Source: a virus
Reading direction: 5' to 3' (one strand)
Virus record (IMG/VR): IMGVR_UViG_3300043410_000542
Span: 1-64,000 of that record
Length of the DNA: 64,000 bases
The translations under genes and the position numbers were made by a program. The notes beneath the pieces are model-generated. The model was not told the DNA's origin and did not search any database. It saw only the letters and a program-made list of their open reading frames with translations. Of this stretch, positions 1 through 32,305 are shown piece by piece (within the stretch, counting starts at the first letter, position 1; the number at the start of each line of letters is the position of its first letter).

Positions 1-18
1 CTATGTAAAGAAATTGTT

Positions 19-246
19 TTGCCTATGTTTGCTACAAAACCTAAATATCAATTCAGCCGTGCCAAATGGTACGAGGGTAAGTTTGACTGGCGCAAGTATG
101 AAGAGGTACATAACTGGTGTGAGCAACACTTTGGTAAGCATCCCAAGAGACCAGATGCTTGGTCACGCTGGAATCACATGTATGAAGATATGATTCTTTT
201 CCGTGATGAAAAAGATTACATGATGTTTGTATTGAGGTGGTCGTGA
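19..246 (+). CDS. Small array protein 1 (WC/LRW family)
   Basis: Function unknown. First visible member of the tandem small-gene array. The 75-residue product has HNWCEQHFGK in the middle and ends DEKDYMMFVLRWS, the two signatures of the array family. It is rich in Trp, Tyr and charged residues, with no signal peptide or membrane segment. The reading frame is open to the window edge, so the true start could lie upstream; TTG at 19 and ATG at 25 are the visible options. Its stop overlaps the next start (GTGA). Confidence 0.7.
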   Translation: MPMFATKPKYQFSRAKWYEGKFDWRKYEEVHNWCEQHFGKHPKRPDAWSRWNHMYEDMILFRDEKDYMMFVLRWS

Positions 247-455
247 GATTAGAAAATGATTTAGACGGACTGCTCGTAAAAGAGCGTGTTAAATTTCATT
301 ATAAAGAAATACCATGGACCCAATTGCTTGAAATATCAGCATGGTGCGATAAACAGTTTGGTAAAAATAATTGGGGTTTTGACACGGGACATGTTGTATT
401 CAACGGTCGTTGTCCTGAAGGTAGCTCTACAATGTTTGTGTTGAGATGGTCATGA
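243..455 (+). CDS. Small array protein 2 (WC/LRW family)
   Basis: Unknown function, 70 residues. It carries SAWCDKQFGK and ends STMFVLRWS. I choose GTG at 243 because it overlaps the previous stop as GTGA and has GAGG (234-237) five bases upstream, the same arrangement as its neighbours. GTG at 237 is in frame but lies inside that ribosome site. The usual Asp-Glu-Lys before the C-terminal motif is replaced by PEGSS. Confidence 0.7.
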   Translation: MRLENDLDGLLVKERVKFHYKEIPWTQLLEISAWCDKQFGKNNWGFDTGHVVFNGRCPEGSSTMFVLRWS

Positions 456-688
456 AAGTTGAAATTATATTTGATCCAGGGAAATATCCCTATCGTGCTG
501 AAATCAAATGGCATTCCTCTACTGATTGGAACTCAACTGAGGCATACGATTGGTGCGAGAGAAACTTTGGTCACAGAAATGCCAAGTATGAAAATCCTCG
601 CTGGTATGCTAACACTAGATACTTCACCGGTAACTTCAGGTTTCGTGACAAAAAAGATGCTGAATGGTTCTTATTGAGGTGGGGATGA
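452..688 (+). CDS. Small array protein 3 (WC/LRW family)
   Basis: Unknown function, 78 residues. It shows both signatures clearly: YDWCERNFGH near residue 36 and FRDKKDAEWFLLRWG at the C terminus. ATG at 452 overlaps the preceding TGA (ATGA), which favours it over the in-frame ATG at 446. Translation is probably coupled to the upstream gene. A good reference member for family searches. Confidence 0.75.
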   Translation: MKVEIIFDPGKYPYRAEIKWHSSTDWNSTEAYDWCERNFGHRNAKYENPRWYANTRYFTGNFRFRDKKDAEWFLLRWG

Positions 689-942
689 GAGTGGAGTTTA
701 ATCAAGGCGTACCCGCAGGATGTAAGCAATGGCTTTGGGATAACGTCGGACCCGGGAATATAACATTGACTAGACCTGGTATCATTGATGCGGAGGATAG
801 TCCCGAGTATGCTTGGTTCTTTGAGCGTATTAAGAAACCAACAACCCCGGAATCGTTTTATGACGACCCGTTTTATTTTGTCCCTACTATCACAGTTAAA
901 GACCCGAAGATGGCGATGGTATTTGCGTTGAGGTGGCAATGA
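685..942 (+). CDS. Small array protein 4 (WC/LRW family)
   Basis: Unknown function, 85 residues. The central motif is altered to KQWLWDNVGPG, without cysteine, and the C terminus is KDPKMAMVFALRWQ. It has an insertion of about 25 residues between the two motifs compared with array protein 3. The start at 685 is set by the ATGA overlap and the GAGGTGGGG ribosome site inside the previous gene's last codons. Confidence 0.7.
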   Translation: MRVEFNQGVPAGCKQWLWDNVGPGNITLTRPGIIDAEDSPEYAWFFERIKKPTTPESFYDDPFYFVPTITVKDPKMAMVFALRWQ

Positions 943-1136
943 AACAATATGGAATAGCCATTGAGAGTTGGCCGGCTACACGTAAAGTAGATGTTAAGTG
1001 GTGGCTGCTTGAAAACTTTGGACCCGAAGACTCTCCGACACAAAAGGGACGTTGGGGTTGTGCGTATGACTATGGGCTGGATAATATCTACATGGATGAA
1101 GATGTTTTTATAATGTATCAATTGAGGTGGGGATGA
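939..1136 (+). CDS. Small array protein 5 (WC/LRW family)
   Basis: Unknown function, 65 residues. It has VKWWLLENFGPED in the middle and ends DVFIMYQLRWG. The Cys of the WC motif is replaced by Trp. The start at 939 overlaps the previous TGA by ATGA, with GAGG five bases upstream. Part of the same translationally coupled operon. Confidence 0.7.
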   Translation: MKQYGIAIESWPATRKVDVKWWLLENFGPEDSPTQKGRWGCAYDYGLDNIYMDEDVFIMYQLRWG

Positions 1137-1381
1137 TGGATTTAGAACTTGTAAAAAAGATTGTAGTCAGACAAGGGCAGAATGAATTTCTGAAAAACCC
1201 CATCGTATGTCCACCCGAAGCAAAAGTTGTCACTGGTATAATGAAGGAGGATGCTTACTTACATTTTTTAGAAACCAAATGCGGCGTGGAGATTCTGTTG
1301 TCAGAATATCATCACGAGATAGTTGGGTACAATGTTCTTGATGAAAAGAAGTTTTCTTGGTTTGTGTTGAAGTGGGCATGA
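1133..1381 (+). CDS. Small array protein 6 (LRW-family C terminus)
   Basis: Unknown function, 82 residues. Only the C-terminal signature is clear (DEKKFSWFVLKWA, with Arg to Lys). The WCxxxFG motif is not recognisable, so the N-terminal half has diverged or been replaced. ATG at 1133 overlaps the previous stop (ATGA); a second ATG follows at 1136. Confidence 0.68.
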   Translation: MMDLELVKKIVVRQGQNEFLKNPIVCPPEAKVVTGIMKEDAYLHFLETKCGVEILLSEYHHEIVGYNVLDEKKFSWFVLKWA

Positions 1382-1545
1382 AGTTCTTTCGTAAAGTTAA
1401 GCTAGCCGAAGCATACGCTAGGGTAGAGTGGTGTAAAACAACTTTGGGCAAAGAAGTTAAAGGTGGTAACTGGTGGCGATACAAAGGACATCTTTACTTT
1501 ACAGATGAAAAGTGTTATACTTGGTATATATTGAGGTGGTTATGA
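1378..1545 (+). CDS. Small array protein 7 (WC/LRW family, shortest)
   Basis: Unknown function. At 55 residues this is the shortest member and shows the minimal family unit: VEWCKTTLGKE, a short Trp-rich linker (GGNWWRYKG), then FTDEKCYTWYILRWL. The start at 1378 overlaps the previous TGA (ATGA). It would be the simplest member for structure prediction of the module. Confidence 0.72.
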   Translation: MKFFRKVKLAEAYARVEWCKTTLGKEVKGGNWWRYKGHLYFTDEKCYTWYILRWL

Positions 1546-1802
1546 GAGAACCTTATTTTGTTAGAGAAAGATACATCGTTCCTGTAGGCAGACTGTGGGC
1601 TGACCCTTGGCCTGACTACTTTAATAATTTTTGGGCACACTGTGGTTATGTTGCTGATGTGAATAACTGGAAACAAATCACAGTCGCTAATTATGAACTT
1701 AAACTATTAGGTGGTAAACTGATTCAAACTAGCACACAGGGTTGGTACTTGCGTTGGGATGATGAAAAGAGTCACACATTTTTTGTATTGAAGTGGTCAT
1801 GA
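1542..1802 (+). CDS. Small array protein 8 (LRW-family C terminus)
   Basis: Unknown function, 86 residues. The C terminus is DDEKSHTFFVLKWS, and an internal WYLRWDDEKS places an LRW-like triplet just before it. The central WC motif is replaced by NNFWAHCGYV. The start at 1542 follows a GAGGTGG site and overlaps the previous TGA by ATGA. Confidence 0.7.
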   Translation: MREPYFVRERYIVPVGRLWADPWPDYFNNFWAHCGYVADVNNWKQITVANYELKLLGGKLIQTSTQGWYLRWDDEKSHTFFVLKWS

Positions 1803-2011
1803 AAATTATCAAATGGTATGAGCCAACTTTCAAGCCAATCATACAATTGATTGCGAAAGAAGCAAAAGAGTCAAAGTGGGGCAACAGTGAAGGTATGCGT
1901 GTGATTGCCAAACACAAGTTCGGACTTAAGATTAGTAAGGCTTCAGGTGATTGGCATAGAATCGTTGTATTAGATGAACAGAAGTATGCTTGGATGATGC
2001 TGAAACTATGA
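1799..2011 (+). CDS. Small array protein 9 (degenerate LRW tail)
   Basis: Unknown function, 70 residues. It ends LDEQKYAWMMLKL, a shortened version of the family C terminus lacking the last Trp. The start at 1799 overlaps the previous stop (ATGA). The downstream gene starts inside its last codons at 2008, here without the GAGGTGG site seen in most other junctions. Confidence 0.66.
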   Translation: MKIIKWYEPTFKPIIQLIAKEAKESKWGNSEGMRVIAKHKFGLKISKASGDWHRIVVLDEQKYAWMMLKL

Positions 2012-2289
2012 TACAATGGAATCGTAGCATAGGCTATAACATTGATAGACATAAAGCGAAAAAGATGGATTACCATATTATTACAGACGGAGCAGACTGC
2101 TACCCCTGGCACGAATACTTTGCTATTCTTCCTAGAAAGACAGTCACAGGTAAACGTATCTTCTGGGAGAAAGCATACAAACGCAAAGTGTGGGTAGTGT
2201 GGGGCACAGGGTTTCATATGGAACCTGAAACCCAGTACGCAACTATATTTGATTTATTGACTTATGAAAATACTAAACCTAAGACTTAA
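2008..2289 (+). CDS. Small array protein 10, atypical member
   Basis: Unknown function, 93 residues. It lacks a clear WC motif. The C terminus (ETQYATIFDLLTY followed by a short Lys/Pro tail) is at best a distant version of the family motif, extended past the usual end. It overlaps the next gene by 26 bases rather than four. I read it as a real gene because it keeps the start-stop overlap (2008-2011) and the operon spacing. Confidence 0.58.
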   Translation: MIQWNRSIGYNIDRHKAKKMDYHIITDGADCYPWHEYFAILPRKTVTGKRIFWEKAYKRKVWVVWGTGFHMEPETQYATIFDLLTYENTKPKT

Positions 2290-2722
2290 GGCACGCTGGC
2301 GCAAGTATCTTGCTGACCGCAAGTTAGCAAAGAGTGGCTATAGTTCATGGCGTGTGTATAGACATTGCCGTGATGTTGATGTTATGCGTCATGCTGACAA
2401 AGTAAGTGATTTCTATTGGAAGTACAAGCATGTATTCGTGTGTGGTGGAAGTCCATCATCACACTATGCTTACAGCGTAGCACGTGATTACGGTCCTGCT
2501 GGGTTAGTGTTCGGCTACGAACTTATGAGAGACTGGTGTGAAACTAAATGCAGATTCAAGTATCGTGTTGACATTCACAGAGTATTGAAACAAACAGGTC
2601 TGGGTATTAACGGTGAAGAATATCCTGAATGGTACTTCAATGATATCGGTGGCACAGACCTAGTGTTCTTTGCTTTTATGAACGAACAAGATTATATTCA
2701 TTTTATGTTGAGGTGGGGATGA
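2264..2722 (+). CDS. Array protein 11, long member (WC/LRW family)
   Basis: Unknown function. At 152 residues this is the longest clear family member. The N-terminal 85 residues are basic (RLKARWRKYLADRKLAK) and have no counterpart in neighbours. The C-terminal part holds MRDWCETKCRF and NEQDYIHFMLRWG. It looks like an array module with an added N-terminal domain. ATG at 2264 lies inside the upstream gene. Confidence 0.68.
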   Translation: MKILNLRLKARWRKYLADRKLAKSGYSSWRVYRHCRDVDVMRHADKVSDFYWKYKHVFVCGGSPSSHYAYSVARDYGPAGLVFGYELMRDWCETKCRFKYRVDIHRVLKQTGLGINGEEYPEWYFNDIGGTDLVFFAFMNEQDYIHFMLRWG

Positions 2723-2967
2723 GTAGTTTTAAGCACAAATCAGAACGCTACTATGGTAGCAAACATCAAGTACACACTGTATCTTGGAAGGGTCAAGGTG
2801 AAGTTGACGGAGATGCGATACGTGAGTGGTGCATTAGTAAGTTTGGACCAGCTGGATATCGTGAAGACCTAGGTGAGACTATATGGTTGGATGACATTAC
2901 CGGAAACGGTGAAATCTTCTTGTGTAAAGATGAATACTTGACTATGTTCTTATTGAGGTGGGATTGA
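2719..2967 (+). CDS. Small array protein 12 (WC/LRW family)
   Basis: Unknown function, 82 residues. It shows REWCISKFGPAG in the middle and CKDEYLTMFLLRWD at the end, both strong. The start at 2719 overlaps the previous TGA and has GAGGTGGGG upstream, encoded by the preceding gene's last codons. It joins its downstream neighbour through TGATG. Confidence 0.74.
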   Translation: MSSFKHKSERYYGSKHQVHTVSWKGQGEVDGDAIREWCISKFGPAGYREDLGETIWLDDITGNGEIFLCKDEYLTMFLLRWD

Positions 2968-3245
2968 TGGAATACTTTTATGGTGGTGGCGGCAATAGTC
3001 GCCCGGTCTTCATATACAGATTCAAGGTTGATCCTTGTACTACTAAAATGTACCAGTGGGCCCAAGCATACCCAGAGAAAGGACCCTTCAGTCGTTTCCA
3101 TGTTGAATGGCGTTCAGTGTACAGCAAAATGGATTACCCGCTAGACTATGATATTATACAGTTTGAACATAGTGAAGCCGCTAAAGTATTCAGAATCGCA
3201 TTCGCCGGTGAGTATGAAGAAACCACCATGAAAGAATACAGATGA
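2967..3245 (+). CDS. Small array protein 13, atypical member
   Basis: Unknown function, 92 residues. It lacks the WC motif. Near the C terminus, FEHSEAAKVFRIAFAGEYE resembles the family tail with LRW replaced by IAF and an added acidic extension. The start at 2967 shares a base with the previous stop (TGATG). The next gene again begins by ATGA overlap. Confidence 0.62.
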   Translation: MEYFYGGGGNSRPVFIYRFKVDPCTTKMYQWAQAYPEKGPFSRFHVEWRSVYSKMDYPLDYDIIQFEHSEAAKVFRIAFAGEYEETTMKEYR

Positions 3246-3424
3246 TTGAATGGAAAGTAGTTTATCGTGATATGGCAGCTAGTCAATGGGATGAAAAAGT
3301 TAAATGGTGTGCCAACAACCTCTATAACGGTGGACACTATGAACCGAACTGGCAGACGCAGTATCCATTCATTATCTTTACAGATGAAAAAGAGTTTGCT
3401 TGGTTTAAGCTGAGATGGGAATGA
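3242..3424 (+). CDS. Small array protein 14 (WC/LRW family)
   Basis: Unknown function, 60 residues, close to the minimal family unit. VKWCANNLYNGG is followed about 20 residues later by FTDEKEFAWFKLRWE. The start at 3242 overlaps the preceding TGA (ATGA). Confidence 0.72.
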   Translation: MIEWKVVYRDMAASQWDEKVKWCANNLYNGGHYEPNWQTQYPFIIFTDEKEFAWFKLRWE

Positions 3425-3627
3425 TTGTTGTTGGTATATACGTCACTGAGGATTTTCACATAGATAATGCGATTGATTGGGTGATAGCAAACTGTGAAAG
3501 TTTTGACAAGTACCAATTGATGGAACTTGATTTTGAAGAACGACAAGAACGAGATTGCTGGTTTAGACTAGATATGTATTTCAAAGAAGAAAAAGATGCG
3601 ATGATGTATAAGTTGAGGTGGGAATAA
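3421..3627 (+). CDS. Small array protein 15 (LRW family)
   Basis: Unknown function, 68 residues. The WC motif is altered to IDWVIANCESF. The C terminus KEEKDAMMYKLRWE is typical. The start at 3421 overlaps the previous stop (ATGA). The end joins the next gene as TAATG. Confidence 0.7.
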   Translation: MIVVGIYVTEDFHIDNAIDWVIANCESFDKYQLMELDFEERQERDCWFRLDMYFKEEKDAMMYKLRWE

Positions 3628-3974
3628 TGTTTGAAGAAGTTAATAAATGGTTTAAAATATTTGGTAAAGACATAGGAGAAAAGATGGTTCACAAAGCAGT
3701 GAGCCCGGGCGACCAATTCAGCGTATTTCAAATCAAAAATGGAATGGTTGGATTCAAGCCTTTCCTAATTATTGAGAATCAAAACGAAACTGTGTTATAC
3801 TCTAATCAACATTGCGTAGCAGTTGATGTGCGCCCGGAAGTCGAACAGTGGGTACTTGAACAGCCCATTCACATGTGGAAGTATGCAGAAGAAATTGATG
3901 ATTGTCATCACGGTATGACAAGATTGCTAGTAGATAGAGAATTATTAACTTGGATGACATTGAAATGGATTTGA
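3627..3974 (+). CDS. Array protein 16 (LRW-family C terminus)
   Basis: Unknown function, 115 residues. Only the extreme C terminus keeps the family pattern (VDRELLTWMTLKWI). The first 90 residues are unrelated to the neighbours by eye. The start at 3627 shares its A with the previous TAA stop. Another case of a conserved tail on a different N-terminal body. Confidence 0.66.
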   Translation: MFEEVNKWFKIFGKDIGEKMVHKAVSPGDQFSVFQIKNGMVGFKPFLIIENQNETVLYSNQHCVAVDVRPEVEQWVLEQPIHMWKYAEEIDDCHHGMTRLLVDRELLTWMTLKWI

Positions 3975-4402
3975 ATAGCCTGTCAGATAACGAATTGATT
4001 GATTATATCATTAAGCATGATACAGATCCTGTTAGGGTTCGTCTTGCCACTCACATGCAACGAGTAGCCGGTTCAATCATTGATGGATTAGTTGATGTTG
4101 GTATGGATGATACATGGTGTACGTTTAGAAGTGAGGTTAATGGTGCTAACTATCACCCTGGACAATATATCAACCACCTTGAGAATGAGGTTGAATATCT
4201 CAATGACAAACTAAGTGATGCGCTCAAAGAAATCAAAGACCTTCAAGCACGGACTATCATGGACTTTATCGGTGAACTCAAACAAGAGATTAAGACCGTA
4301 GAGTGGTGTCGTGATGAGGCTTACAGAGACAGAGACAAAGCACAAGAGAATGAAAAGATTATGAAAAGTAAACTTGACATGTGGGCAGTGTTGAACCGAT
4401 GA
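3965..4402 (+). CDS. Array-embedded coiled-coil protein
   Basis: Function unknown, 145 residues. A long heptad-rich helix spans about residues 60-140 (NHLENEVEYLNDKLSDALKE and following), so it is probably a coiled coil and an oligomer. It contains TVEWCRDEA but no LRW tail, ending DMWAVLNR. The start is 3965 or the in-frame ATG at 3950; both overlap the upstream gene. It sits inside the array and is probably co-translated with it. Confidence 0.65.
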   Translation: MDLNSLSDNELIDYIIKHDTDPVRVRLATHMQRVAGSIIDGLVDVGMDDTWCTFRSEVNGANYHPGQYINHLENEVEYLNDKLSDALKEIKDLQARTIMDFIGELKQEIKTVEWCRDEAYRDRDKAQENEKIMKSKLDMWAVLNR

Positions 4403-4623
4403 ACACTAAAGTGGCAAGTTTTTTAGAACGTTGGTATGAAGAAGCAGAACTTAATGACAAGTACTGGCCCTATCAGTTCACAGTCAAAGACTGGCAGCGC
4501 ATTCGTGAAACTGAACGATTCTGTTATACGAACTTTAAGAGCAAGAACTGGCGCAATCGTGGAAGATACTTTGGATTCAAACGCAAAGAAGACTATGAGT
4601 GGTTTGTATTGAGGTGGGGATGA
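4399..4623 (+). CDS. Small array protein 18 (LRW family)
   Basis: Unknown function, 74 residues. It ends FKRKEDYEWFVLRWG. The central motif reads ERFCYTNFKSKNWRN, a variant of WCxxxFG. ATG at 4399 overlaps the previous TGA (ATGA), even though the upstream gene is not a clear family member, so the junction style is conserved independently of the protein motif. Confidence 0.7.
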   Translation: MNTKVASFLERWYEEAELNDKYWPYQFTVKDWQRIRETERFCYTNFKSKNWRNRGRYFGFKRKEDYEWFVLRWG

Positions 4624-4877
4624 AAACTAAAGAAGAAGAAATGATGGACATCATGGCTGAAGAAATTCGCAAAGAGATTGATGAGGGTATTATTTCAAAC
4701 ATACTAGTTGAGTCTGGTTGGACACCTGTAAAATTTTATTTTAAGAACGGTCCTCAAGCGACTGATATACAGATTTGGTTAGCCGGGACATGCACCGGAG
4801 ATTATCGTAGATTGGGTAGTGACTACGTGTTTGAAAACAAACAAGACGCTGAATGGTTTATGCTACGATGGCTTTAA
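4620..4877 (+). CDS. Small array protein 19 (LRW-family C terminus)
   Basis: Unknown function, 85 residues. The N terminus is acidic and helical (MKTKEEEMMDIMAEEIRKEI). The C terminus ENKQDAEWFMLRWL is typical. No WC motif is visible. The start at 4620 overlaps the previous TGA with GAGGTGGGG upstream. Confidence 0.7.
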   Translation: MKTKEEEMMDIMAEEIRKEIDEGIISNILVESGWTPVKFYFKNGPQATDIQIWLAGTCTGDYRRLGSDYVFENKQDAEWFMLRWL

Positions 4878-5134
4878 CGTTCAAAATAGATGAGGGTAGA
4901 GTATACGGAGCACGATACTACACGGCCGAACCTCACTGTGATGATTGGAATGAAGCAGTCCCGTGGTATTTACTACAAGACTGGGTAGAAGAAATGTATG
5001 GAGAGAGTAAAGGTTCTATCTGGTTTGACAGAAATAAAGCCCCCGAACCCGGTGAAAGATGGTATGTGAACAATGCGAAATTTTGGTTTCGCAACAAAGA
5101 AGATTTGGAATGGTTTTTACTAAGATGGCAGTAA
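4868..5134 (+). CDS. Small array protein 20 (LRW family)
   Basis: Unknown function, 88 residues. It has LQDWVEEMYGES and ends RNKEDLEWFLLRWQ. The start at 4868 lies inside the codons for the previous LRW (cgATGgc), a different overlap geometry from the ATGA junctions: ten bases are shared. The same arrangement recurs at its own 3' end. Confidence 0.7.
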   Translation: MALTFKIDEGRVYGARYYTAEPHCDDWNEAVPWYLLQDWVEEMYGESKGSIWFDRNKAPEPGERWYVNNAKFWFRNKEDLEWFLLRWQ

Positions 5135-5373
5135 CGATTAAACTCAAACAACTGTACGGTGAACAAGAAAACTGGCTTGCTAAGAATGTAGGACCAAGAA
5201 TGCACTACCTTCACAATTCAATAGGTGGTCAGGGTTGGATCGCAAAGAAAGGTTCAGAAGAAGTAGAAATGGAAGGTCATGGTGGGACATACAGGGGTCA
5301 TATAACAGTTTGGAATCTAACATTTGCAGAAGATAAGTATGCTACTTGGTTTAGGATAATGTTTCCAGAATGA
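5125..5373 (+). CDS. Small array protein 21 (degenerate LRW tail)
   Basis: Unknown function, 82 residues. It has ENWLAKNVGPR (WC-motif variant) and ends AEDKYATWFRIMFPE, where LRW has become IMF. The start at 5125 is inside the previous gene's LRW codons (agATGgc), a ten-base overlap. The next gene begins by ATGA. Confidence 0.67.
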   Translation: MAVTIKLKQLYGEQENWLAKNVGPRMHYLHNSIGGQGWIAKKGSEEVEMEGHGGTYRGHITVWNLTFAEDKYATWFRIMFPE

Positions 5374-5588
5374 TAGAAGTCAAAATCATAGATATGTTGC
5401 CAAACGAGATTATGGACATAGTCAAAGAACTAAGAAAAAGTGGGCATGTTCAGGGCACAGACTTTGACTTTGAATATCACAAGCCCGAATACGATGACTT
5501 TAGTTACGAACCAGTGTATAATAGATATACAATCTTCAAGTTTTACAAAGAAGAATTAGCGACTTGGTTCGCATTGAGGTATCAGTAA
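5370..5588 (+). CDS. Small array protein 22 (LRW-family C terminus)
   Basis: Unknown function, 72 residues, acidic and Tyr-rich. It ends FYKEELATWFALRYQ, with the last Trp replaced by Tyr. The central motif is not clear. The start at 5370 overlaps the previous TGA. The TAA stop shares its last base with the next ATG. Confidence 0.68.
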   Translation: MIEVKIIDMLPNEIMDIVKELRKSGHVQGTDFDFEYHKPEYDDFSYEPVYNRYTIFKFYKEELATWFALRYQ

Positions 5589-5875
5589 TGGCAGTATCAA
5601 GAGTAGGTGGGTTAAGCACAGGTACATTTACGACATACACTAGTATGTCTAAACCAGTGGACGAATCAGTTTACGAAGTGAAACAGAACGGACACATCCT
5701 ACATAGAATTGACCTGAGATATAATAAAGTTGATCCTGCTGATTATATCAAATGGTGTCGTAGAAACTTGGGCAATCGACAAGAGACATGGGACTTCTGG
5801 TTAGCAGGTGGTATCTTGTACGTTGAAGTCTGGGGTGACAAGGCAAAAGTCACCTATGAAATGTGGAAGCATTAA
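5588..5875 (+). CDS. Small array protein 23, last member
   Basis: Unknown function, 95 residues. It carries a strong IKWCRRNLGNRQ motif but the tail has decayed to GDKAKVTYEMWKH. With it the recognisable array ends; the next gene is unrelated by eye and one base away. The N-terminal 50 residues are Ser/Thr-rich and lack resemblance to other members. Confidence 0.65.
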   Translation: MAVSRVGGLSTGTFTTYTSMSKPVDESVYEVKQNGHILHRIDLRYNKVDPADYIKWCRRNLGNRQETWDFWLAGGILYVEVWGDKAKVTYEMWKH

Positions 5876-5876
5876 C

Positions 5877-6170
5877 ATGAGTGAACTAGTAGTAATAAAC
5901 GGAATAATACAACACAAACACGCATACATGGTGTCAGGCGATTCGATTGTATTTCACACTGCACCTCCCAACCGTTCTGATGTTAGTATTCTCATGGATG
6001 ACACTAGATATGAATACATAGGAGACGGTACTACGTTCGTATTTCAAGGAACACCTTCAGGTAGAATGAAATTTAGAAAGTTCATGGAAGAAGTGTACGA
6101 GAAGAAAGATGACCCGACAGTCAAAGACGCATTAGAGAAATTGAAAATAGTAATGGAGTTAGTAAAGTAA
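5877..6170 (+). CDS. Hypothetical small protein
   Basis: Not recognised, 97 residues. The N-terminal half looks like beta strands and the last 30 residues are a charged helix. It has no array signature, although it continues the operon with a one-base gap upstream and a TAATG overlap with the exonuclease downstream. I start it at ATG 5877. Confidence 0.6.
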   Translation: MSELVVINGIIQHKHAYMVSGDSIVFHTAPPNRSDVSILMDDTRYEYIGDGTTFVFQGTPSGRMKFRKFMEEVYEKKDDPTVKDALEKLKIVMELVK

Positions 6171-6727
6171 TGGCAGATATAATGATTGACATTGAGAGTT
6201 TGGATACAGGTCCAGACTGCGTGATACTAACAATCGGTGCAGTATTGTTCGACCCTAAAGGTCAAGGAATCATCGACAAGTTAGAACTTAGACCTACGAT
6301 TGAAGAACAAACAGATGTGTTCAATCGCACAATCAATCCAGATACATTGCGCTGGTGGGGTGAACAATCAGAAGCCGCACAAGAAGAAGCACTAGGTGAC
6401 AGAGACAGAGTATCATTTAAAGAATGCATGGATACATTGTACAAATGGTGCTGGAAGTATAACAACGGCAAAGTATGGTCGAATGGTGCATCATTTGACG
6501 TTGTGGTTATGGAGTCAGCATGGCGCAATCACAATCAGATGCCACCGTGGAACTTCTGGAACATTAGAGATACTAGAACCATCTACGATATCTGCGGCGT
6601 AAGTCTCAAAGACGGTGGACATTCCACTAGCCACAAGGCTGTAGAAGATGCTGAACGTCAAGCCATTGTCGTACAGAAAGCATACATGAAATTAATCAAA
6701 GCAGAATTGGTAGCAGCACCACGATGA
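6170..6727 (+). CDS. dexA: DexA-like 3'-5' exonuclease (DEDD fold)
   Basis: Probable 3'-5' exonuclease of the RNase T/DnaQ fold, 185 residues. Motif I is IDIESLDTG (D7, E9), followed by the family's strand ILTIGAVLFDP. A central NGASFDVVVMESAW matches ExoII. FWNIRDTRT closely resembles the FWNQRDIRT stretch of T4 DexA, and HKAVEDAERQA fits ExoIII with its catalytic His and Asp. T4 DexA is 227 residues and degrades single-stranded DNA; phage homologues are also annotated as exoribonucleases, so the substrate is open. It is co-translated with the upstream small gene and the DnaE-like gene downstream (ATGA). Confidence 0.83.
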   Translation: MADIMIDIESLDTGPDCVILTIGAVLFDPKGQGIIDKLELRPTIEEQTDVFNRTINPDTLRWWGEQSEAAQEEALGDRDRVSFKECMDTLYKWCWKYNNGKVWSNGASFDVVVMESAWRNHNQMPPWNFWNIRDTRTIYDICGVSLKDGGHSTSHKAVEDAERQAIVVQKAYMKLIKAELVAAPR

Positions 6728-28681: not shown

Positions 28682-31600
28682 ATGGCACTAGTATCACCAG
28701 GCGTAGAAGTAAACATTATCGACCAAAGTCAATATTTACCAGCTGCCTCAAATTCAGTTCCGCTTATCGTTTTAGCCACAGCGCAAAGCAAGGCAAACGC
28801 AGCGGGAACAGCAGTTGCAGCGGCTACGACCAAAGCAACAGCTAACAAGCTATATCAGGTAACAAGTCAGCGTGACCTAGTTACATTGTACGGTAATCCG
28901 TTCTTCTATAAAACAACGAACGGCACTCCAATTCATGGATATGAATTGAACGAATACGGTCTATTGGCTGCTTATTCATTGTTAGGTACAACAAATCGTG
29001 CGTATATCTTACGTGCTGACGTTGACCTAGCTGCATTCGTCGGTTCTGTCTCTCGTCCTTCTGGTGCTCCTGCATCAGATTCATATTGGTTAGACACAAC
29101 TAACTCTACATGGGGTATCAATGAATTTGATGCTGTAACAGGTACATTCAGTGGTATGGAACCAATCGTATTGACAGACCCTAACGATGTAGTAGACGGA
29201 GCTCCAAAAGCTACTCTAGGTAACATCGGTGACTATGCAGTTATTGCATATGCACAAGAAGGTGCTGGCTTAGACGTAAGCACATATTTCTTCAAGAACC
29301 GTTTCAACACATGGGTTGCATTAGGTTCAAGAGAGTGGAAAGAAGGTATCCCTGCAGTAACAGGTACAGTTTCTAACCCAACATTGACTTCAGGTAATAC
29401 AATCATCATTACTCCATACAATGCAGTATCAGGTTCTATTACTCCTATCGCTCCTATCACAGTTACATTGACAGGATCTACAGTTGACAGTTTAGTTACA
29501 GCAATCAACGACTTGAATTTACAAAACGTTGTTGCTTCTAACATCTCAGGTAAGTTGTCATTAGCATTCACGAACCTACAAACAGAACAGCAAACTCTAT
29601 TCCCATATGGTTTGGCTAACGGTTCAGGTTCTCCATTGACAACATTGGGTATTGCCCCAGGCATCTACTACTCACCATCTGTTGTATACGGTGTTTCTTC
29701 TAGAATGCCATTATGGACAGCAAGTCAAACAACACCGCACCCAACAGGTTCTGTATGGGTTAAGGTTAACGCTGTTAATAACGGTATGAGCCTAGCATTG
29801 TCTAAGTTCAATGGTACAACAAGTTCGTATGAAAATATTAACGTAGCTACATATAGAACAGACGCAGACGCTACTGTTGCTATCGATAGTACTGGCGGCA
29901 AAGCGGTACCAGCTGGTACTGTATACGCACAATTTGGTCTAGACGGTCTAAACCCAACAGCACCAGTTCAGTTGTTCAAGCGTTTAGCTACAGGTGCTAC
30001 AGTTGTTACTGGTATCACTACACCAACTACAGTTCCACAGAACACAACATTGCGTGTGTTCGTAACTACTCCAGGCGTAGCTACTGGTTCTACAACATCA
30101 TCATCAGGTATCCCTGGTACAGCACACATTATCGTAACGACAGGTACGACAATCGAATCATTCATTAATGATTGGACTGCTGCACAGATTCCTTACACAA
30201 CAATTAAGTTAACAACTGCAGGTAATCTACAGATTACACATACTGCAGGCGGTGAAATTTTAATGTCAGACAGAGATCCATCAACTGGTGACTTCAACAC
30301 ATTAATGGAAGACTTAGGCTTTGTTGCTGGTACTACAATTGGTGTTAAGAAAAGTCGTCCTGCCCCATTCACTAACCCTACTGTAAACCCATCATCTACA
30401 TCAGGTGCAGGTACAGGTGCTTCATTGAGCATCACTAGCTTGGGTTACGAGTACATCGTTAACAGCGTAGCAGGCGGTTCAGGTTATCAATTGGGTGACA
30501 CTATCACTATCAACGGTAGCGAATTAGGTGGCTCAACTCCTGAAAACAACTTGGTTCTTAAAGTTGTTGCTATTTCAGGTGGTTCAGTAACTAGAGTTGT
30601 TGTTGAATCAGGTTACGGTGTTGCAGACTACGGTCTTGTATTGTCTAACTGGGTTCCAGTAACATACACTGCGAACGAAGGTGCTCCAGTTGCAATCCCA
30701 AGCAACGGTACATATTGGTATTACTCAACTCCAAGCCAAGTTGACATTATGATTAACAAAGGCAACGTATGGAGAGGTTATAGAAACATCGCATTTGATG
30801 CGAATGGTCACCCAGCATCATCAGGTACTGTTGGTCTAACTGACGCTGCAGGTCCAATCATCGCAGCAGCAGCTCCAACTACACAAACAGATGGTACAGC
30901 TTTAGAGTACGGTGATCTATGGGTCGATACAAGTGACTTAGAAAACTACCCAATGATTTATCGTTGGAAGTCAGTAAACAATCTACCACAGTGGGTCTTG
31001 ATTGACAAGACAGACCAAACATCTAGCGAAGGTATTGTATTTGCAGATGCACGTTGGGCAGCAAGAGGTGATGTAGATCCAGTTGAAGATCCGATCCCAA
31101 CAATCGCTAGCTTATTAGTAAGCGATCACTTAGACCTAGACGCACCAAGCGCAACATTGTATCCACAAGGTACAATCTTGTTCAATACACGCCGTTCAGG
31201 TTACAACGTTAAAGAGTTCAAGACTAACTATTTCAGTGGTAAGAACTATCCTAACGCAGGTGCATACAACTCAGGTGCCCCGGCATCAAACACTAACTTG
31301 CCTAAAGTAAGTTATGCATGGGTTTCTGCTAGCGGTCTAGCAGCAGATGGTTCAGCTTACATGGGTCGTAAGGCTCAACGTAACATGGTTGTTCAAGCAT
31401 TGAAGGCAGCAGTTGCTACTAACCAGACAATCCGTGAAGAAGATAACTTCTTCAACTTGATTGCTACTCCTGGTTACCCAGAACTACAACCTGATATGGT
31501 TGCATTGAACAATGACCGTCACAACACAGCGTATATCGTTGGTGACACTCCATTGCGCTTGAAGGATCAAGCAACAGACTTGACCAACTGGGCTACTAAC

Positions 31601-32305
31601 GCAGCCGGTGCAACAGCATCTGGTGAAGATGGTTGGGTTACACGTGACAGCTACTTGGGCGTATTCTACCCAAGCGGTATCACAACAGACTTGTCAGGTT
31701 CTCCTGCAGTAGTTCCAGCATCACACATGATGTTGCGTACATTGTTGCGTAATGATACTATCGCTTATCCTTGGTTAGCTCCAGCTGGTACACGCCGTGG
31801 TACAATCGACAATGCTACAAACATCGGTTACTTAGATTCAACAACTGGTGAATTCCACACAGTTAAGAATCGTATGAGCATCCGTGATGTATTGTACACA
31901 AATCAAATCAACCCATTAGCATTCTTCACAGGCGTAGGCTTGTTGAACTATGGTAACAAGAACTCATTTGATTCACAATCAGCATTGGATCGTATCAACG
32001 TAGCACGTTTAGTTGCATACATTCGTCAACAATTGATGATTGCAGCACGTCCATTCGTATTCGAACCAAACGATGCGTTGACTCGTCAACAAATCACAGC
32101 GGTAGTTCAATCATTGTTTATCGACTTGGTTGCTAAACGTGGTCTATACGACTATCTAGTTGTATGTGATAGTTCAAACAACACACCATCACGTATCGAC
32201 AGAAACGAACTATGGATCGACATTGCGATTGAGCCAGTGAAAGCTGCGGAATTCATTTACATTCCAGTACGCTTATTGAACACAGGGGCTCTAGGAGCAG
32301 CGTAA
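28682..32305 (+). CDS. 18: Tail sheath protein, gp18-like, greatly enlarged
   Basis: Contractile sheath subunit. 1207 residues compared with 659 in T4. Conserved ends: the N terminus MALVSPGVEVNIIDQSQYLP with LVTLYGNPFFYKTTNGTPIH and LNEYGLLAAYSLLGTTNRAY, and the C-terminal core from FYPSGITTDLSGSPAVVPAS through MSIRDVLYTNQINPLAFFTG to LVVCDSSNNTPSRIDRNELW and IAIEPVKAAEFIYIPVRLLN. Between about residues 200 and 780 is a long Thr/Ser/Gly-rich beta region, probably surface-exposed insertion domains. One of them carries the GGSGYQLGDTITI pattern shared with the protein at 18164. Followed by a terminator. Confidence 0.92.
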   Translation: MALVSPGVEVNIIDQSQYLPAASNSVPLIVLATAQSKANAAGTAVAAATTKATANKLYQVTSQRDLVTLYGNPFFYKTTNGTPIHGYELNEYGLLAAYSLLGTTNRAYILRADVDLAAFVGSVSRPSGAPASDSYWLDTTNSTWGINEFDAVTGTFSGMEPIVLTDPNDVVDGAPKATLGNIGDYAVIAYAQEGAGLDVSTYFFKNRFNTWVALGSREWKEGIPAVTGTVSNPTLTSGNTIIITPYNAVSGSITPIAPITVTLTGSTVDSLVTAINDLNLQNVVASNISGKLSLAFTNLQTEQQTLFPYGLANGSGSPLTTLGIAPGIYYSPSVVYGVSSRMPLWTASQTTPHPTGSVWVKVNAVNNGMSLALSKFNGTTSSYENINVATYRTDADATVAIDSTGGKAVPAGTVYAQFGLDGLNPTAPVQLFKRLATGATVVTGITTPTTVPQNTTLRVFVTTPGVATGSTTSSSGIPGTAHIIVTTGTTIESFINDWTAAQIPYTTIKLTTAGNLQITHTAGGEILMSDRDPSTGDFNTLMEDLGFVAGTTIGVKKSRPAPFTNPTVNPSSTSGAGTGASLSITSLGYEYIVNSVAGGSGYQLGDTITINGSELGGSTPENNLVLKVVAISGGSVTRVVVESGYGVADYGLVLSNWVPVTYTANEGAPVAIPSNGTYWYYSTPSQVDIMINKGNVWRGYRNIAFDANGHPASSGTVGLTDAAGPIIAAAAPTTQTDGTALEYGDLWVDTSDLENYPMIYRWKSVNNLPQWVLIDKTDQTSSEGIVFADARWAARGDVDPVEDPIPTIASLLVSDHLDLDAPSATLYPQGTILFNTRRSGYNVKEFKTNYFSGKNYPNAGAYNSGAPASNTNLPKVSYAWVSASGLAADGSAYMGRKAQRNMVVQALKAAVATNQTIREEDNFFNLIATPGYPELQPDMVALNNDRHNTAYIVGDTPLRLKDQATDLTNWATNAAGATASGEDGWVTRDSYLGVFYPSGITTDLSGSPAVVPASHMMLRTLLRNDTIAYPWLAPAGTRRGTIDNATNIGYLDSTTGEFHTVKNRMSIRDVLYTNQINPLAFFTGVGLLNYGNKNSFDSQSALDRINVARLVAYIRQQLMIAARPFVFEPNDALTRQQITAVVQSLFIDLVAKRGLYDYLVVCDSSNNTPSRIDRNELWIDIAIEPVKAAEFIYIPVRLLNTGALGAA

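Follow-up and report, generated by a model that had tools for sequence, protein, structure and literature searches.

A tandem array of small proteins from one previously unnamed jumbo-phage family, some with N-terminal segments resembling the major capsid protein

We analysed a window of 64,000 bases, positions 1-64000 of the 86,257-base IMG/VR contig IMGVR_UViG_3300043410_000542, at whose left end small accessory genes of one large, previously unnamed jumbo-phage family stand in a tandem array. The phage is a contractile-tailed jumbo phage: the window's tail sheath protein best matches Agrobacterium phage Atu_ph07, Sinorhizobium phage Phosso and Pseudomonas phage PA5oct, and related loci are found on contigs as long as 367 kb. 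The sheath protein (28682-32305) is 1207 residues long; known sheaths align with it in two pieces that span about 58%, so that a large insertion is probable. Twenty-four small open reading frames (ORFs), all on the plus strand and here numbered g1 to g24, fill positions 1-6170. An earlier note, made from the letters alone, had described a tandem array at 19-5875, and 23 of the ORFs do lie there, the last of the 24 extending to 6170, where a DexA-like 3'-5' exonuclease gene (6170-6727, plus strand) bounds the array and provides a syntenic anchor. The proposed start at 19 has to be given up, as g1 is truncated at the contig edge, its frame being open from base 1 (LCKEIVLPMFATKPKYQFSRAKWY..). The last 127 bases of another contig, L016, are identical to window positions 1-127 (100% identity over exactly 127 bases), which looks like an assembly-graph overlap or break inside the array. 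L016 thus looks like the adjoining assembly piece, and would add one more upstream member and the complete start of g1 (MTKTITIDLETW..GGIHAGQMMVITSGRRTGKS..YDTNLCKEIVLPMFATKPKYQFSRAKWY); on that contig the added part of the array lies behind a 242-residue gene of another kind.

A common C-terminal tail, [FYMW]xL[RK][WYL]x, ends 18 of the window's 267 ORFs on both strands, all 18 within 19-5588 (the earlier count was at least 17), and none of the other 249; g10, g13, g17 and g24 lack it. The mid-gene signature W-C-x3-[NK]-[FL]-G, earlier ascribed to about a dozen genes, is rarer in its strict form (about six genes: g1, g2, g3, g7, g12 and g23, with any residue allowed before F/L) and reaches 10-11 genes once relaxed forms (WLLENFG, WLWDNVG, WVEEMYG, WLAKNVG) are admitted. 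The overlaps of 4-26 bases between neighbours are as first described, with the 4-base ATGA type predominating and longer ones extending up to 26 bases.

A profile hidden Markov model (HMM), seeded with ten window genes and iterated on 200 loci, found 938 ORFs in 170 of the loci and none among shuffled or reversed ORFs; its consensus, EWNEIEDWCEENFGGPGEGGRWHGTEGGTTFYFKDEKDATWFLLRWS, is nearly always C-terminal. Fourteen window genes fall below E 1e-3, inside the membership cut-off of E≤0.001, and a fifteenth, g21, lies at 0.002. A profile search was the check on the family that the earlier note had proposed; with empty controls, it brings together the core members and hundreds of related ORFs, not random hits alone. 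Member counts from about 119 of the loci are biased, since these were picked by a DNA pattern resembling the tail; the 78 found through the neighbouring exonuclease are free of that bias, and 64 of them contain members, with a mean of 5.4 over all 78. IMG/VR jumbo contigs carry 0 to 20 matches each at E≤0.01, and one contig, G011, carries 35 family ORFs in two main clusters. Among cultured jumbo phages, the profile matches Phosso 43 times, Atu_ph07 8 times and PA5oct 3 times, counted at E≤1, so that the weakest are doubtful. In the stretches inspected, these matches fall under genes annotated as hypothetical; those of Phosso have tails such as LFKLTW or LFKLRW and are spread over several clusters, some adjoining tRNA genes. 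The same profile search found nothing convincing in T4, KVP40, CBB or S-CAM1, and tblastn with single members, two relatives and consensus sequences found no members in cultured phages, so that only the profile search detected them there. The family thus extends to phages of cultivable hosts, as Phosso exemplifies.

The members differ strongly beyond the shared domain. The truncated g1 (1-246; family HMM 1.7e-16) retains a leader remnant, LCKEIVLPM, resembling the active-site motif of the ribonucleotide reductase NrdA, followed by a KYQFSRAKWY body and the LRW tail; it is 94% identical to the body in locus L240, and L016 and L288 supply the complete leader with a P-loop motif. Further LRW members are g2 (243-455; 6e-7), g3 (452-688; 4e-13, with paralogues in its own genome), the divergent g4 (685-942; 1.4e-6, with a 93% identical orthologue in L181), g5 (939-1136; 8e-9), g12 (2719-2967; 6.5e-9), g15 (3421-3627; 2e-7), g18 (4399-4623; 3.5e-10), g19 (4620-4877), g20 (4868-5134; 1.3e-10) and g22 (5370-5588; 5.5e-5, ending ALRYQ), together with the minimal members g7 (1378-1545, 55 residues; 4e-11) and g14 (3242-3424, 60 residues; 2.5e-10). 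Only a tail can be recognized in g6 (1133-1381; WFVLKWA, read directly, with orthologues at 83-89%) and g8 (1542-1802; FFVLKWS); g16 (3627-3974) ends in WMTLKW and g9 (1799-2011) in a degenerate WMMLKL. The tail is lost in the weak members g21 (5125-5373; WFRIMFPE) and g23 (5588-5875; WCRRNLG seen directly), while g10 (2008-2289) and g17 (3965-4402) are array residents without the domain, g13 (2967-3245) has no clear one, and g24 (5877-6170) is a small flanking gene without it. In g11 (2264-2722, 152 residues; 8e-9) a conserved basic N-terminal domain, KARxRKYRAERKLKKSGYxSWRxYR.., precedes the LRW domain; this defines a subfamily of about 21 (L158, L157, L102, L034 and others), and the basic domain has no core-protein match.

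AlphaFold2 models of the two members folded agree on a predicted β-α-β-β-α core: g14 (60 residues, 66 sequences) is modelled as β-α-β-β-α with a predicted local distance difference test score (pLDDT) of 89.5 and a predicted template modelling score (pTM) of 0.71, and g20 (88 residues, 116 sequences) as β-β-α-β-β-α with pLDDT 84.5 and pTM 0.75. Unrelated folds behind a shared tail, raised earlier as a possible outcome, were thus not what the models gave. Against the PDB, Foldseek found no match to either model below E 0.6 (best about 0.7, for a cut-off of E<0.001) and a sequence search found none; a viral structure library gave five matches at E<0.001, all to uncharacterized proteins of uncultured phages. 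No family in Pfam, PHROG, NCBIfam or PADLOC covers the C-terminal domain, so that the initial impression of no known system holds in these libraries and the PDB.

What precedes the constant domain was grouped, across all members, into 37 N-terminal clusters of at least three sequences, whose HMMs were compared with some 175 large G011 proteins and with fetched core proteins: the major capsid protein (MCP), NrdA, large terminase subunit (TerL) and DnaB helicase genes of such phages. The sole protein matched at E<0.01 was the MCP, by two clusters (E down to 1e-8), with none for reversed sequences. The g1-type cluster matches MCP 43-99, which includes the counterpart of the T4 segment, Gol, that activates the Lit exclusion system, and the largest cluster (89 members, including g19 and g20) matches MCP 173-216. 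Because the mixed ORF set contained no MCP, a BLAST search of member N-termini against it gave no excess over reversed controls. The first 30 or so residues of g19 match a long amphipathic helix of the MCP (175-211); for g19 itself the Pfam Gp23 profile (PF07068) matches at 171-199 with E 2.4e-4, below its cut-off, and hhalign gives 55%. Its subfamily HMM matches the MCP at 7.6e-5 (reversed, none) and its relatives in L032 and L094 at 1e-9 and 9e-9, from which we infer that g19 shares their capsid-segment origin. In G011 (2e-12 and 3e-7) and G012 (4e-7), small ORFs match the Gp23 profile above its curated cut-off, as does a member with an odd N-terminus in L018 (E 1e-7). A relative of g16 in L319 (G011:13507-13854) contains the capsid segment IVGVQPMT, which g16 itself no longer matches. 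Everywhere the likeness is to segments of about 30-60 residues, not to the full-length HK97-type capsid protein that PF07068 describes, and the full MCP is a separate gene. On these comparisons, two N-terminal subfamilies either descend from or imitate two MCP segments, Gol and the helix at 173-216.

The remaining 35 clusters, and the singletons, match no core protein, as would be expected if the array were a general host-takeover cluster in which each member had an unrelated host target and the MCP and enzyme segments were convenient folds or recombination accidents. Host-takeover functions are common among the small overlapping accessory genes of phages. We nonetheless regard this as an unlikely account, though the strongest of the alternatives, given that the segments stay in their native frame under purifying selection and that the MCP alone is matched, and by two subfamilies.

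A search with the g1-type body retrieved 70 loci, whose leaders fall into an MCP type (..LPMIRQVTPTLLANSILGVQPMTGPVGEIFTMRANY..), a P-loop plus NrdA type (..GGFKQGQMTLYSAGRQTGKS..NNLCKEIVLP..), an NrdA plus YYAPYIP type, and none; a search of bacterial genomes gave no relative of the g1 type. Among 52 different leaders, 15 match the MCP at E<0.01 and 14 at E<1e-4, all lying within MCP 48-101 apart from one longer match from 31, with other matches to NrdA near 436-456 and to DnaB near 146-202; shuffled leaders gave none and reversed leaders one, to an unrelated protein. TerL has no significant BLAST match to the leaders, but by eye the P-loop leaders resemble its Walker motif PRQTGKS at RQTGKS and give the impression of a TerL-like loop attached to a DnaB-like strand. 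By parsimony on a weakly resolved body tree the leader type changes about 15 times, of which well-supported branches force only one or two per type. Within the g1-type subfamily the capsid segment can be exchanged for short segments carrying a P-loop or the NrdA active site, motifs that likely share their origin with the core genes. A terminase match in L332 (G013:303827-305365) has one in-frame TAA, which may mark a gene that is interrupted or spliced, or else a misassembly.

Phosso, too, has capsid-like segments. One of its LRW members, at 114 kb (XYS97328), matches Gp23 305-354 at E 6.6e-6, below the cut-off, and at 182 kb an ORF outside the family (MCP-like segment at 182280-182546) matches Gp23 9-62 at E 4.6e-10, above it. 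The ORF seen at about 182.3 kb (L374:1396-2076) has 226 residues, with a Gol-like capsid segment and no LRW domain; the annotated coding sequence XYS97433 (from 182439) starts later and may omit that segment.

Leader and MCP share 45-65% DNA identity with synonymous sites near saturation, which points to long-standing conservation at the protein level; so low an identity rules out that MCP DNA was copied into the leaders recently. MCP-type leaders have a ratio of nonsynonymous to synonymous polymorphism (pN/pS) of 0.35, equal to that of the body. The same figures weigh on the idea that the leaders are relics or decoys of target sites for homing endonucleases or inteins that favour P-loop, NrdA and capsid genes. 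P-loop and NrdA active-site motifs are intein sites, HNH homing-type genes stand directly behind the MCP gene in L313 and L314, and T4 segD adjoins gene 23; yet amino acids are conserved where the DNA is not, and the leaders always lie in frame at the ORF start, so that we consider such DNA-level causes improbable. The two HNH genes, on two jumbo contigs, occupy L313:2609-3379 and L314:2380-3060.

Array orthologues are under purifying selection. Orthologous pairs have ratios of nonsynonymous to synonymous substitution rates (dN/dS) of about 0.01-0.44 where measurable (0.01 for g5 against L129), and pooled pN/pS is about 0.28 against L129 and 0.25 against L181. Values so far below 1 rule out present positive selection on the members, and purifying selection together with the empty shuffled and reversed controls rules out chance ORFs. 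Gene content is far less stable: in most relatives with an 86-93% identical exonuclease, most array proteins are either absent or 33-57% identical. Compared with L181, measurable array genes have synonymous distances of about 0.3-1.4 (one saturated) and the exonuclease 2.7, which suggests horizontal swapping between phages. Of the repeated duplication and fast divergence first proposed, duplication and strong divergence stand, one profile recovering core members and relatives alike, and gene content and subfamilies do turn over quickly; the sequences of orthologues, with their low pN/pS, are under constraint.

This turnover also speaks against a role in self-regulation, in which MCP-like N-termini would bind capsid subunits, or their chaperone or EF-Tu, and tune assembly or translation. 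The segments are similar to MCP, DnaB/TerL and NrdA of the phage itself, and the Gol segment of T4 gp23 binds EF-Tu, with a role in translation or folding of the capsid protein suggested (PMC3014915). Fast turnover, with gene number and leader type differing between close relatives, is a poor fit to an essential assembly factor, and we rate this role as still less probable than general host takeover.

The junctions suggest a second use for the tail. At the commonest junction, the ATGA overlap, the LRW codons TTG-AGG-TGG sit where the Shine-Dalgarno site of the next gene is expected, and the arginine is AGG at 81 of 117 overlapping junctions against 15 of 46 elsewhere. As background, AGG makes up 8.3% of the arginine codons of long genes in exonuclease-anchored loci; within the window it encodes the tail arginine in 9 of 13 LRW genes (10 of 14 if g22 is included). 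Such enrichment is what one would expect if the tail were merely the next gene's ribosome-binding site in translated form and reflected no protein family. Where the next start is placed differently, however, g19 and g20 encode LR as CTA-CGA and CTA-AGA, indicating that the peptide is conserved for itself; LRW is also kept at gene ends that do not overlap, and similarity and fold span 45 or more residues. As a sole cause the ribosome-site artefact is refuted, and we give it almost no credence; the codons are likely used twice, as peptide and as ribosome-binding site, and the overlapping genes are probably translation-coupled, which makes this duplicating array an example of coupled coding.

We are highly confident of the family, array and capsid-segment findings: short segments of a capsid protein have been detached, fused in frame to an accessory domain and kept by selection. 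What the proteins do is a matter of ranking. Several bacterial defences recognize capsid proteins, for which reason our first choice, at a probability of roughly 0.4, is that the array proteins act as baits or adaptors in conflict between phage and host or between phages, ahead of general takeover, self-regulation and DNA-level causes in that order; high gene turnover and horizontal exchange were counted in its favour. The constant C-terminal domain would bind a common partner, and the variable N-terminus would be a bait imitating conserved phage surfaces. The proteins might then occupy or misdirect host sensors of the capsid and other core phage proteins, sensors that would work like Lit, CapRel and Thoeris, or else interfere with the same core proteins of rival phages, and tandem duplication with leader exchange would let the phage vary its baits. 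A more elaborate version, which we put forward with clearly less conviction, is a modular decoy: a tandem, translation-coupled library with a constant docking domain and exchangeable N-terminal baits taken from the best-conserved surfaces of the phage's own capsid, terminase/helicase and ribonucleotide reductase, which would sequester or redirect the host immune sensors or rival-phage machinery that recognize those surfaces. Relative to the host-takeover or anti-defence role first proposed for the array, the capsid and enzyme segments in the N-termini make such a role more plausible and more specific.

Several observations weigh against a bait or adaptor role. The N-termini of most members are unlike any known protein, so that a bait is suggested for two subfamilies only. 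Gol activates Lit in T4, and a simple copy could therefore harm the phage. MCP-like segments also turn up outside the family, as in Phosso at 182280-182546, and so are not tied to the LRW domain. The P-loop and NrdA motifs of the leaders are short (E 1e-5 to 0.05) and, as intein hot spots, may differ in origin. PADLOC models run against 116 members gave two isolated weak hits and no link to a defence system. If the bait reading is nevertheless true, the array would be a novel phage response to immunity based on capsid sensing, and the imitated segments would indicate which features bacterial sensors recognize.

One of the closest known counterparts is Gol itself, which in T4 we take to be gp23 93-122. 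The g1-type leaders align with gp23 at about 89-132 and thus cover this stretch (PAVMGMVRRAIPNLIAFDICGVQPMNSPTG), which aligns with MCP 58-87; the GVQPM core is invariant in all eight sequences compared. The review of the system places Gol in the first quarter of gp23, as 29 residues that activate the Lit exclusion system (PMC3014915). Unlike in T4, the segment here stands apart from the capsid protein, joined to a small domain unrelated to it, and such phages keep a full MCP gene elsewhere, apart from the small genes that bear the segment. Lit, CapRel and Thoeris all sense capsid proteins (PMC3014915, PMC9712102, PMC11312562), and the sensing by CapRel and Thoeris would provide a target for a capsid mimic; these are host systems, and we found no phage capsid mimic described in the two papers on them (PMC9712102, PMC11312562). 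In literature outside subscription journals we found no description of the family or of such mimics. The zinc ribbons of Bacillus phage G, with about 35 copies, are likewise a small jumbo-phage protein that has multiplied within one lineage, but the domain is another, with neither LRW tail nor capsid-segment imitation reported (PMC7824862). Also close are hypothetical proteins of Phosso, Atu_ph07 and PA5oct, not described as a family in the literature searched, which the profile now unites as members of the LRW family.

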